The position numbers were made by a program, and so were the translations under genes. Positions 23,414 to 26,971 of a stretch of DNA of 29,035 nucleotides are shown here, in pieces (positions within the stretch are counted from its first letter, which is position 1; every line of letters begins with the position of its first letter). The DNA is from a virus: positions 1 through 29,035 of the IMG/VR virus record IMGVR_UViG_3300037493_001285, one strand, 5' to 3'. The notes below the pieces were generated by a model. That model was not told the DNA's origin and made no database searches. It saw only the letters and a list, made by a program, of their open reading frames with translations.

Positions 23414-23426
23414 AATTTTATATTTG
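23398..23426 (+). promoter_or_regulatory. Promoter for the structured RNA
   Basis: TTTG (23398-23401), a 17-nt spacer and a perfect TATATTTG (23419-23426). ATCAAAAA (23403-23410) lies in the spacer, as in other promoters here. The RNA start is expected near 23432. Confidence 0.7.
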
Positions 23427-23431
23427 CATCA

Positions 23432-23539
23432 TTCAGAGGTAGTAGCCTGAATGGATTAAAAAAAATTGTCGCCCTATGGTGACTGCGAGACCGAGATTAA
23501 TTCAAGGTCGCTACTACCGCAGTCTTCATAGGGCTTTTT
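23432..23539 (+). ncRNA. Structured RNA with candidate pseudoknot and terminator
   Basis: No gene lies in this gap. P1 is a 7-bp hairpin (23430-23436 with 23447-23453) with a 10-nt loop. Nine loop bases (GGTAGTAGC, 23438-23446) are perfectly complementary to 23510-23518 (GCTACTACC). After an A-rich linker comes a long helix: GCCCTATG (23471-23478) with CATAGGGC (23527-23534), and GACTGC (23481-23486) with GCAGTC (23519-23524). Inside it is a small GACC/GGTC stem (23489-23492 with 23506-23509). Five T follow the helix (23535-23539), making it a terminator. The pairing of the P1 loop to the strand beside the helix would form a pseudoknot. With the upstream promoter, this looks like an independent RNA of about 105 nt. 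It matches no RNA family I know, though a leader or attenuator for 23553 is possible. Confidence 0.7.
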
Positions 23540-23552
23540 AATTCTAAATATT

Positions 23553-23882
23553 ATGACAACAAATCTTGAAAAAATGACTAAGTGGGAAGTTCAAAAGGCA
23601 ACTTTCCTAATCTTAATGGCAAAGGATTTAGAAATGGATATCCATTGCTATGGTGAATTGGATGTAAACCAAAATAGTGGATATACCTATTTATGGCTGG
23701 AAGATTATGACTTTACTCTTTATCTTCCTATTAATTGTGATTTGAAAAGAGAGGAAGTTTATGTATTGTGGACAAACCATCATACTGGTGAAGAGATAGA
23801 AGAATCATTAGATGAATTTAATGATTTGCAAGACATTAATGAATGGGTAAAAAAATTAGAAAATGAACATGGACTCTCGTAA
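23553..23882 (+). CDS. Small acidic hypothetical protein
   Basis: A 109-aa acidic protein (many Asp and Glu). It is alpha/beta: an N-terminal helix (KWEVQKATFLILMAKDLEMD), strands (YTYLWLEDYDFTLYLPI), and an acidic C-terminal helix (EEIEESLDEFNDLQDINEW). No family or catalytic motif. Acidic small phage proteins sometimes mimic DNA, but nothing here proves it. It starts 13 bases after the RNA terminator, so its expression may depend on read-through. It overlaps the next gene by 20 bases. Confidence 0.5.
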   Translation: MTTNLEKMTKWEVQKATFLILMAKDLEMDIHCYGELDVNQNSGYTYLWLEDYDFTLYLPINCDLKREEVYVLWTNHHTGEEIEESLDEFNDLQDINEWVKKLENEHGLS

Positions 23883-24501
23883 TACTTGCATCTTTTATCG
23901 TTCAATGTTTGAATCAATAAAAGAACTACCTAAAGAGAATCAGGCTGAGTTATACAATGCCATCTTTGAATACTCATTAGACTTTGTTGAACCATCATTA
24001 AGTGGTCTATCATTAACTATATGGAGACTCATAAGACCAGTATTGGAGAAAGGTAATACTAACTATATCAATGGAAGTAAACCAAAATCAAAGCAAACAA
24101 TAAGCGAATCAGAAGCGAAAGTTAAGCGAAATGAAAGCGAAAGCCAAGCCTATAAGGATAAGGATAAAGATAAGGATGAAGATATAGATAAGGATAAAGT
24201 TATTAGTGCTAAAGCAACATCATTCAAGTATTATAATCATCAAGACCTAATCAACCAAATGAAACCACTAATAGATAAGTTTGGCAAAGATACTTGTAAT
24301 GCTTTCTACTCTTATTGGTCTGAGCCATTAGCCAATGGTAAGATGAGATTGACTAATGAGAAGGCTTGGGATACACATAGAAGGTTATCATCTTGGAAAC
24401 AAAGAGAGAAACAACCTAATAACAACTTTGTCAAACAACCACAACCAGTATTCAATCGTTCATCTCAAGGTCAGAAATATGTAGGTGACGATGTAATCTA
24501 A
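23863..24501 (+). CDS. DUF6291-like probable replication initiator
   Basis: A 212-aa protein. The N-terminal 65 residues (CIFYRSMFESIKELPKENQA, then ELYNAIFEYSLDF and LTIWRLIRPVLEKGN) fit the DUF6291-type helical domain of phage and mobile-element replication proteins. Residues 70-112 are a low-complexity linker: Ser/Glu/Lys-rich, then KDKDKDKDEDIDKDK. The C-terminal part (about 115-212) is helical (FYSYWSEPLANGKMRLTNEK, RLSSWKQREK), like the helicase-loading end of replisome organisers. The linker DNA holds phased iteron-like repeats (24091-24152) and an A/T-rich hexamer repeat, as in phage lambda, where the origin lies in the O gene. It precedes the helicase gene by two genes. Function inferred from these features. 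Confidence 0.6.
   Translation: MNMDSRNTCIFYRSMFESIKELPKENQAELYNAIFEYSLDFVEPSLSGLSLTIWRLIRPVLEKGNTNYINGSKPKSKQTISESEAKVKRNESESQAYKDKDKDKDEDIDKDKVISAKATSFKYYNHQDLINQMKPLIDKFGKDTCNAFYSYWSEPLANGKMRLTNEKAWDTHRRLSSWKQREKQPNNNFVKQPQPVFNRSSQGQKYVGDDVI
24091..24156 (+). repeat. Six phased 11-bp iteron-like repeats
   Basis: AAGC-led units start at 24091, 24102, 24113, 24124, 24135 and 24146, exactly 11 bp apart. The middle four are AAGCGAA; the outer two are AAGCAAA and AAGCCTA. Eleven is not a multiple of 3, so the units fall in all three codon phases, and the repetition is held at DNA level. The spacing puts them on one face of the helix, as protein-binding iterons do. Confidence 0.8.
24151..24201 (+). 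repeat. A/T-rich GATAAG-type hexamer repeat
   Basis: Directly after the iteron-like array lies an in-frame hexamer repeat (AAGGAT / AAAGAT variants) coding the KDKDKDKD linker. Very A/T-rich and purine-biased on this strand, it could be the duplex-unwinding element of an origin, or simply a charged linker. Confidence 0.6.
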
Positions 24502-24505
24502 AATT

Positions 24506-25318
24506 ATGAAAACTATAAACTCACTATCAGGCGGTAAAACATCATCATATATGGCTTACCATTACCCAGCAGATTATAATATATTTTCTTTAGTCACTAT
24601 CGAAAATGTTAGATGTTCACCTAATGACAAAGGTCTTATTAAAATTATCTCAGATAAGATTGGCAAAGAATTTATTGCTACTGCAGAAGATGATAAGACA
24701 CTTGTTGTCATTTTAGAACTTGAGCAGTTAATAGGTCAAGAAATCATATGGGTAAGTGGTAACACGTTTGATTCAATAATAAATAAAAAAAAAATATTGC
24801 CTAATTCATTGACAAGGTTCTGTACATCAGAAATGAAAATGAGACCTATTTGGGATTGGTGGTATAAAAATATTAATGAAAAGATTAAAATGGGTATTGG
24901 TTACCGATGGGATGAAATGGAAAGAGCCGAAAGACTAACTAACACATTTAAAGGAATAGTAGGTAAATCAAGCAACGGAAGGAATAAATGGAAAGAGATT
25001 GAATGGAGGCAAGGATATTTTCCACTAATTGAAAATAAGATAACACACTTACCAGTTAAATTATGGGCAAACTCAACCAGTCTTGAATTTCCAAGTGATA
25101 GTAATTGTGTAGGGTGTTTCCACAAATCTAAGGAACAACTAAGAAAAAACTATGAAGACAACCAACAAAAAATGCAATGGTTCATTGACCAAGAAGCTAA
25201 ATATAAAAGCACTTGGAAAAATGGAATGAGTTACAAAAACATATCTAAGTTAGGGTTGCAACTTGATTTTAATTATGGTGGAGGTGCTGGGTGTCAAGGT
25301 GGATTCTGCACCGATTAA
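24506..25318 (+). CDS. PP-loop ATPase of the PAPS-reductase/DndC type
   Basis: A 270-aa protein beginning with the N-type ATP pyrophosphatase P-loop LSGGKTSSYMA (SGGKTS, residues 8-13). Further family-like segments are RFCTSEMKMRP (105-114) and NCVGCFHKSKEQLRKN. Cys106, Cys201-x2-Cys204 and a C-terminal pair (Cys263-x4-Cys268, in GAGCQGGFCTD) could hold an iron-sulfur cluster, as in DndC and some tRNA thiolases. Such enzymes activate a substrate with ATP or handle sulfur. Phage versions are common; their substrate is mostly unknown. A role in nucleic-acid modification is possible. It sits between the probable initiator and the helicase. No dndB, D or E gene is nearby, so classical phosphorothioation is not supported. 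Confidence 0.72.
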   Translation: MKTINSLSGGKTSSYMAYHYPADYNIFSLVTIENVRCSPNDKGLIKIISDKIGKEFIATAEDDKTLVVILELEQLIGQEIIWVSGNTFDSIINKKKILPNSLTRFCTSEMKMRPIWDWWYKNINEKIKMGIGYRWDEMERAERLTNTFKGIVGKSSNGRNKWKEIEWRQGYFPLIENKITHLPVKLWANSTSLEFPSDSNCVGCFHKSKEQLRKNYEDNQQKMQWFIDQEAKYKSTWKNGMSYKNISKLGLQLDFNYGGGAGCQGGFCTD

Positions 25319-25400: not shown

Positions 25401-25583
25401 ATGAGAAAATTCGCAAAGTACCAACAGAATCTATGTCACGATTATGAATTCATTTATTCATACAAAACTAAAGTAGCTAAGATAACAGACGATGGTGTTG
25501 TTAAATTAGGCTACTGGTCTATGACAACATCAAAGCATATAAATTATGCTGCTAAGGAATTAAATTCATACGTAAGACAATGA
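25401..25583 (+). CDS. Small conserved-looking protein before helicase
   Basis: A 60-aa protein behind its own promoter. Basic, with YQQNLCHDYEFIYSYKTKVA and a Trp-containing YWSMTTSKHINYAAKELN end, a phrase I associate with small Bacteroidetes phage proteins. It overlaps the helicase gene by ATGA. Function unknown; the coupling suggests a link to replication. Confidence 0.55.
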   Translation: MRKFAKYQQNLCHDYEFIYSYKTKVAKITDDGVVKLGYWSMTTSKHINYAAKELNSYVRQ

Positions 25584-26971
25584 TGACTAACCCACAACAA
25601 GCACTCATAGGTATTCTGATGACTGGTGAGACACATCAGGAACTAATACCACAACTTGGTGAGCATCTCTTCAATGAGGTGCTTACCTCAAGGTGTTATG
25701 TAGTAATCAAGAAAACGATTGACAAAGGACTTACTCCTAACATAGTCAATTTCTTTATGACTGCTAAGGACATTGATAAGTTCACACCTAAAGAAATATC
25801 TGAAATAGTTACTTGGTCAAACAACTTGACCTATAATGAACCAGTTAACGAATACATTGCCATACTTAAAGATAATCACATCAAGAGGTCAATAGCATCA
25901 ATTGTAACTGAGCAGTCATTAGGTCTTGTTAATACTGATGGTTTCACAACTGCTACATCAATCATCAAATCATTAACTGATTTACTTGATACTGGTTCTA
26001 ACTCTGATAATATTATTGACCTTTCACAATTGACTAATGAAGAACGTGAATCATATTACAGAAGAGCAGCACTAACATTATCTGGTAAGACTACTGGACT
26101 TGAGACTGGGTTAAAGTCACTTAATAAGTTTACTGGTGGATTCCATCCCGAATTCATAATTATTGCTGGTAGACCATCAATGGGTAAGACTGCACTTGCA
26201 CTATTTCACGGAATGAAAAGTGGTGAGGCTGGAATCTATTTTAATCTTGAGATGAATAAGAGCCAACTATGTCAAAGGTTAATACTACAAGAGGCTGGTG
26301 ACTCAATACATTCTTCAAGACTCAGAGACGGCAATCTTAGTCAATCTGAACTGCACTCATTTGAAAAGACCATTGGCAGCATTGAGAAAGCACCATTTCT
26401 AATCTATGACAAAGCAAGGTGTGGAGTCCACGAGGCAATAAGGGTAATGAAGAGAGAGCATCGTAAAGGAAGATGCAAGTGGGCAATTATTGACTATCTT
26501 CAATTGATGACCATAGAAGGCTTTAAAGGAGGTAATCGTGAAGCAGAGGTAGCTGAGATAAGTAGAACATTAAAAGCAGCACAGAAAGAACTTGGAATAC
26601 CAATTATAGCATTAGCACAATTGAGTAGGGAGGTAGAAAAAAGAGCAGATAAAAAACCAATATTATCTGACTTGAGAGAATCAGGGTCATTAGAGCAAGA
26701 TGCTGATAGTGTAGCCTTTGTTTGGAGACCATCATACTATGGATTGAATGATGATGATGGTAACCCATACACCAATCACATCTTCTATCTATTTGAGAAA
26801 CATCGTCAAGGTGCAACGGGTGTAGTTGAGTTCAGACATTCACCAAATATGACCAACTTTACAGATGTTACCACTCACGAGATTGGTAGTACATTTTTAC
26901 CTCAACCTAAAGACCTAAGACATTATGCAGACAAAGACTGGGATAAAGAAACCGACCATACACCTTTCTGA
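25580..26971 (+). CDS. dnaB-like: Replicative DNA helicase, DnaB type
   Basis: A 463-aa hexameric helicase of the usual DnaB length. The N-terminal helical domain (NPQQALIGILMTGETHQELI and onwards to about 110) is followed by a linker and the RecA-like core: Walker A GRPSMGKTA (197-205), Walker B WAIIDYLQLM (301-310), LAQLSREVEKRADKKP (345-360) and DLRESGSLEQDADSVAFVWR (364-383), which carries the conserved glutamine/arginine-finger region. It unwinds DNA at the phage fork. The ATG overlaps the previous stop (ATGA); the second ATG at 25583 is an equal start. No primase is seen in the window. Confidence 0.93.
   Translation: MMTNPQQALIGILMTGETHQELIPQLGEHLFNEVLTSRCYVVIKKTIDKGLTPNIVNFFMTAKDIDKFTPKEISEIVTWSNNLTYNEPVNEYIAILKDNHIKRSIASIVTEQSLGLVNTDGFTTATSIIKSLTDLLDTGSNSDNIIDLSQLTNEERESYYRRAALTLSGKTTGLETGLKSLNKFTGGFHPEFIIIAGRPSMGKTALALFHGMKSGEAGIYFNLEMNKSQLCQRLILQEAGDSIHSSRLRDGNLSQSELHSFEKTIGSIEKAPFLIYDKARCGVHEAIRVMKREHRKGRCKWAIIDYLQLMTIEGFKGGNREAEVAEISRTLKAAQKELGIPIIALAQLSREVEKRADKKPILSDLRESGSLEQDADSVAFVWRPSYYGLNDDDGNPYTNHIFYLFEKHRQGATGVVEFRHSPNMTNFTDVTTHEIGSTFLPQPKDLRHYADKDWDKETDHTPF

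Follow-up and report, generated by a model that had tools for sequence, protein, structure and literature searches.

The initiator gene O of phage lambda and of Stx phages has the replication origin in its middle, where iterons that bind the initiator are accompanied by an AT-rich tract, with four iterons in lambda and six in the Stx phages (PMC7466680). In Bacillus phage SPP1, oriL is located inside gene 38, so that direct repeats and an A/T-rich unwinding element lie in the gene for the origin-binding protein gp38; its partners are a helicase loader and a DnaB-type helicase (PMC6316719). A literature search for described phage origins of similar layout to the locus reported here yielded only these lambda/Stx and SPP1 cases, and no paper that it found named DUF6291.

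The locus lies in the window, the whole stretch of DNA analysed here, which is a 29,035-bp virus record and possibly a fragment. Three features of an in-gene phage origin are found together: direct repeats inside the proposed initiator gene that are conserved as DNA, an easily melted tract adjoining the repeats (24149-24199), and a helicase gene near the proposed initiator (DnaB, 25580-26971). We consider it probable, at roughly 0.8, that the repeats are iterons for the protein of their own gene and that the array and the hexamer tract form the phage replication origin. An earlier note on this DNA had likewise read the array as a replication origin bound by the DUF6291-like product, and our results support that reading.

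The DUF6291 gene and its surroundings

The proposed replication initiator gene (23863..24501, plus strand) encodes 212 amino acids, and the product is indeed DUF6291-like, as residues 9-77 match Pfam PF19808 (E 5e-14; 52.6 bits against a curated cut-off of 27.2). The protein falls in PHROG 19415, of unknown function, and PF19808 is rare in the genomes sampled (3 of 395 and 4 of 398). The Pfam match delimits the N-domain (23887..24093, plus strand), with three predicted helices and proposed as the iteron-binding domain. Predicted structure and shared C-domains define a second, C-terminal domain of three helices (24238..24411, plus strand), which is exchangeable between initiators and is proposed to contact the helicase or its loader. 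In the AlphaFold model the three-helix N-domain is confident (mean pLDDT ~97 over residues 11-60) and is joined by a disordered linker to the three-helix C-domain. Comparison of the model with the PDB by Foldseek and VIA-align returned no significant match, including to solved DNA-binding proteins, and no credible hit came from searching PDB sequences with a profile; structural neighbours in BFVD include two proteins annotated as replisome organizers. DUF6291 is best read as the putative DNA-binding domain of an initiator.

A gene for a DnaB-like replicative helicase (25580..26971, plus strand; Pfam DnaB_C, E 2.5e-74; PHROG 19) begins 1 kb downstream of the DUF6291 gene, and in 39 of 46 homologous loci a DnaB gene lies no more than 3 kb downstream; in phage PJN03 the next gene is a primase/helicase. 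Other neighbours in the window encode an exonuclease VIII-like and a Holliday junction resolvase-like protein. A PAPS-reductase-like gene (24506-25318, plus strand; PHROG 424) sits between the proposed initiator and the helicase, and the Riemerella phages GRNRAP2 and CRP34 likewise have such a gene downstream of their proposed initiator.

GC skew was dropped as a general proof of the origin since the relatives disagree. The distance from the array to the detrended minimum is 65 bp in circular NrS-3, and in the related phages GRAP2 and CRP19 it is 419 and 444 bp, in each case within 1% of the genome. The minimum lies 3.1 kb off the array in PJN03 (7% of the genome) and 45% of the genome away in CRP34. 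In the window, possibly a fragment, the skew is uninformative and no minimum falls at the array.

At the head of the DUF6291 gene group is a pseudoknotted RNA-like element (23423-23541, plus strand), in which a hairpin loop pairs over 9 bp with a distant strand, accompanied by three nested stems and a U-run. Pairing is kept in 96.3% of cells across 42 distinct homologues, with both sides changed at 24 of the 33 pairs, and no relevant Rfam match was found up to E 1. A pattern scan gave 64 distinct copies, 36 of them with a DUF6291 gene downstream; others precede different initiator-like genes followed by DnaB, or helicase genes. Replication modules may use the element as a leader, a terminator or a small RNA.

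The repeat array and hexamer tract

The array (24091..24152, plus strand), delimited by repeat search and homologues, consists of AAGCAAA, four copies of AAGCGAA and AAGCCTA in 11-bp steps. It is located just behind the DUF6291 domain, about 230 bp inside the gene, and runs directly into (ATAAGG)n. The units start at 24091 (AAGCAAACAAT), 24102 (AAGCGAATCAG), 24113 (AAGCGAAAGTT), 24124 (AAGCGAAATGA), 24135 (AAGCGAAAGCC) and 24146 (AAGCCTATAAG), and the spacers between them are all different. Upstream and in register is a degenerate unit of AACCAAA type (AACCAAAATCA; 24080..24090, plus strand) that the earlier note had missed; many homologues have AACCGAA at this place.

AAGCGAA occurs five times in the window against 1.45 expected, and four of the five are inside the array. 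When the sequence was recoded synonymously according to the window's codon usage, four copies in register arose once in 100,000 trials, and no heptamer recurred four times at fixed spacing in any of 100 Markov shuffles of the window; together these exclude chance for the array and confirm the six AAGC-led units, four of them AAGCGAA, at the exact 11-bp spacing given in the earlier note. At lags of 11 and 22, autocorrelation within the array is 0.68 and 0.69, respectively, and Tandem Repeats Finder reports the 11/22-bp array with the adjoining hexamer tract (24152-24199).

The (ATAAGG)n-type tract (24149..24199, plus strand), which encodes YKDKDKDKDE..., is the proposed DNA unwinding element on account of its fixed codons and low duplex stability. 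The hexamer repeat does follow the units directly, as had been claimed, but its A/T richness is not unusual: its content is 71%, and 20% of the window's 48-bp stretches are equally rich. What was seen instead is low duplex stability, since nearest-neighbour energies place 24149-24196 among the least stable 1.5% of the window's 48-bp windows.

Variation across the family

We assembled 191 genes from viral-contig homologues, more divergent relatives and phage genomes, forming 81 clusters at 70% N-domain identity. The best non-triplet period was 11 bp in 55 of the 80 clusters tested. This period beat synonymous recoding at p<=0.01 in 44 clusters, compared with 4 for lag 10 and 1 for lag 7; a clear 11-bp array is missing in about a third of clusters. 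The hexamer repeat accompanies 71 of 80 DUF6291 clusters, and in 31 of 49 the distance from where the last core starts to where the hexamer repeat starts is 4-6 bases.

Cores vary among clusters and include AAGCGAA, AAGCAAA, AACCAAA, AACCCC and ACAACC. The last of these is found in the divergent genes L058, L061 and L063, which yet have the same TATAAGGATAAGGATAAGGAT element. Shortly behind the N-domain, a GG[RAK] motif is present in all 34 AACC-type clusters and in none of the 15 AAGC clusters, an association with a Fisher value of 6e-13 that is uncorrected for descent (62 and 86 genes). On a poorly resolved N-domain tree the core requires a minimum of 7 changes, against 13 in shuffles, and an independent-pairs test of core against GG motif, for which too few branches were supported, was not significant. 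We tentatively propose, at somewhat less than even odds, that DUF6291 is a widespread phage initiator family with self-carried iterons in which GG[RAK] sets the third core base as C (AACC) or G (AAGC). If true, this would be a simple protein-DNA recognition code, readable from each gene alone.

Arrays outside the DUF6291 coding sequence

One homologous locus, L024 (same place as L154), carries an array outside any apparent gene: four AAGCGAA and one AAGCC, spaced by 11 bp and located 25-58 bp ahead of the start codon, with in-gene units present as well. This second array, together with the frequent self-repression of plasmid initiators via their iterons, would fit an operator through which the DUF6291 protein regulates its own transcription while replication starts elsewhere. 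No similar upstream array was found in the window or in nearly all homologues. In those genes the array is instead about 230 bp inside the gene beside a fixed hexamer tract, with a helicase gene following, and we consider an operator unlikely.

When viral contigs were searched for AAGCGAA occurring three times in 11-bp steps, 110 stretches were returned. Among the 99 distinct arrays in the loci examined, 64 are in genes with a DUF6291-like domain (E<1e-5), and several others are at the corresponding position of genes whose products have DUF1376, Lin1244_N, Phage_rep_org_N or Phg_2220_C domains. In another phage group, AAGCGAA arrays of 11-bp period were observed between genes, with ATAAGATAAGATAAG repeats behind them (L077 3787, L082 10788 and L091 3350, array-strand positions); no DUF6291 gene was found on these fragments.

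When cellular genomes were scanned with the DNA pattern, the same array pattern was met mostly as chromosomal minisatellites, so initiators cannot be recognised from the array alone and the setting is needed for the origin reading. AAGCGAA-based 11-bp minisatellites are dispersed in large numbers in Chitinophaga, Capnocytophaga and Bacteroidales chromosomes (L186-L302), and many chromosomal arrays have 1-3 spacer types. The window array was rejected as a minisatellite of this kind, which would require near-identical whole units, spacers included, because its spacers differ and vary among homologues.

Exchange of the N-domain with its repeats

The Riemerella phages GRNRAP2, PT03, CRP34 and CRP19 are 97-99% identical over ~2 kb on either side of the 5' part of the DUF6291 gene, and the 5' part itself is unrelated in DNA. 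The start of the foreign block is 27-36 bp ahead of the start codon of GRNRAP2. In comparison with CRP19 the block ends on the hexamer tail's first base (2825), and in comparison with PT03 and CRP34 on the base directly after the tail (2852). These edges imply that N-domain and repeats are exchanged as one unit in these phages, the C-domain and flanks staying in place. Elsewhere, genes that share N-domain and array can have different C-domains. The window's C-domain also occurs in Riemerella CRP5 and Cellulophaga phi13:2, with a replicative helicase as the next gene in the former and a DnaC-like one in the latter; L048 has a C-domain and upstream element as in the window group, with a different N-domain and without AAGCGAA.

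The end of the block swaps at the hexamer tail and the differing C-domains on genes with the same N-domain and array are what would be expected if the repeats were conserved as recombination seams for shuffling initiator N- and C-domains. Seams would leave unexplained the 11-bp phase, the lineage-specific cores with variable spacers and the match of core to N-domain, and as the whole account of the repeats they are very improbable. The hexamer tract may serve in both roles, as origin element and as recombination seam.

Selection on DNA rather than on the linker

The earlier note had argued that the units cross all three codon phases and that protein coding does not explain them. The crossing is correct (phases 0,2,1,0,2,1 in order), but it cannot carry the argument by itself, because any 11-bp repeat in an open reading frame does the same (3 x 11 nt = 11 codons). 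The peptide K-R-x-x-S-E-x-E-A-x-x is simply (AAGCGAANNNN) translated in three frames. It is the homologues that exclude a coding origin. A scan of viral contigs supplied 62 homologues with 45 distinct arrays, in which the AAGCGAA core is retained in all three phases. Mean core entropy at codon positions 1, 2 and 3 is 0.21, 0.26 and 0.11 bits, and that of the 4-bp spacer is 1.02, 1.36 and 1.15 bits. Third positions that are the most fixed, next to spacers free at positions 1 and 2, are not expected from protein-level selection. Together with the 55 of 80 clusters above, these entropies bear out the comparative check that had been proposed, in that the 11-bp phase is kept in homologues while the protein changes.

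Codon use agrees between array and tract in being more restricted than elsewhere in the genes. Within arrays, Glu is encoded by GAA in 190 of 190 cases (314/534 elsewhere in the same genes), Ser by AGC in 96 of 115 (69/523) and Arg by CGA in 43 of 47 (75/420), and the only Ala codons are GCG and GCC. In the hexamer tracts of homologues, Asp is GAT in 240 of 240 (335/481 elsewhere) and Tyr is TAT in 62 of 62 (241/433). These patterns indicate that selection keeps DNA signals rather than the encoded linker peptide, and the peptide (K-R-x-x-S-E-x-E-A, then YKDKDKD) would for the most part be a by-product. That the repeats are a low-complexity protein linker which arose by replication slippage and has no role as DNA is scarcely credible, even with the linker predicted to be disordered and repetitive K-D linkers being common, given a core fixed at third codon positions with spacers varying at the first and second, a period of 11 that is no multiple of 3, a non-coding copy, and spacers that differ, in contrast to slippage copies.

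A model for the proposed origin

The origin reading is favoured by the codon use, the way the core follows the N-domain, the non-coding copy of the array, the Riemerella block swap and the neighbouring helicase. In the proposed mechanism, one initiator molecule would bind per helical turn, all on one face of the DNA, and the resulting oligomer would open the (ATAAGG)n tract, in which base stacking is weak. Recruitment of the phage's DnaB helicase, whose gene lies 1 kb downstream, would fall to the C-terminal domain.

This reading would give a testable function to a Pfam family that occurs in many phages and has had none assigned, and the origin and binding site of each member could be predicted from the gene itself. 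With both partners in one gene, the about 190 genes would form a data set on the co-change of initiator and site and on the movement of cassettes between phages.

Comparison with known systems

Some members of the initiator-like families Phage_rep_org_N, Lin1244_N and DUF1376, which are different Pfam families from DUF6291, have the same AAGCGAA array of 11-bp period, located in the linker that follows their N-domain. Periods were mixed in the Lin1244_N and Phage_rep_org_N loci used for comparison, with many members having other periods or none. Two Lin1244_N genes of Bacteroidota (L544 and L546) have an 11-bp array with a TTCAAC core in the linker, which suggests that the self-carried 11-bp layout is not confined to DUF6291.

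The window resembles lambda and the Stx phages in having iterons and a melting tract inside the proposed initiator gene, and differs from them in its short cores, variable spacers and reading in all three frames; the lambda and Stx iterons are longer than 11 bp. No link between the window protein and O came out of the Pfam and PDB searches. SPP1 is alike in its direct repeats and melting element inside the gene for the origin-binding protein, which has a DnaB-type helicase among its partners, and it has in addition a distant second site, oriR, of which no counterpart was seen in the window fragment. The proposed origin would work in the manner of those of SPP1 and lambda, a likeness that need not reflect common descent with gp38 or O. 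What is new here is the putative initiator family itself, its three-frame 11-bp layout, a hexamer tract written as dipeptide repeats, and lineage-specific cores tied to the domain that is predicted to bind them.
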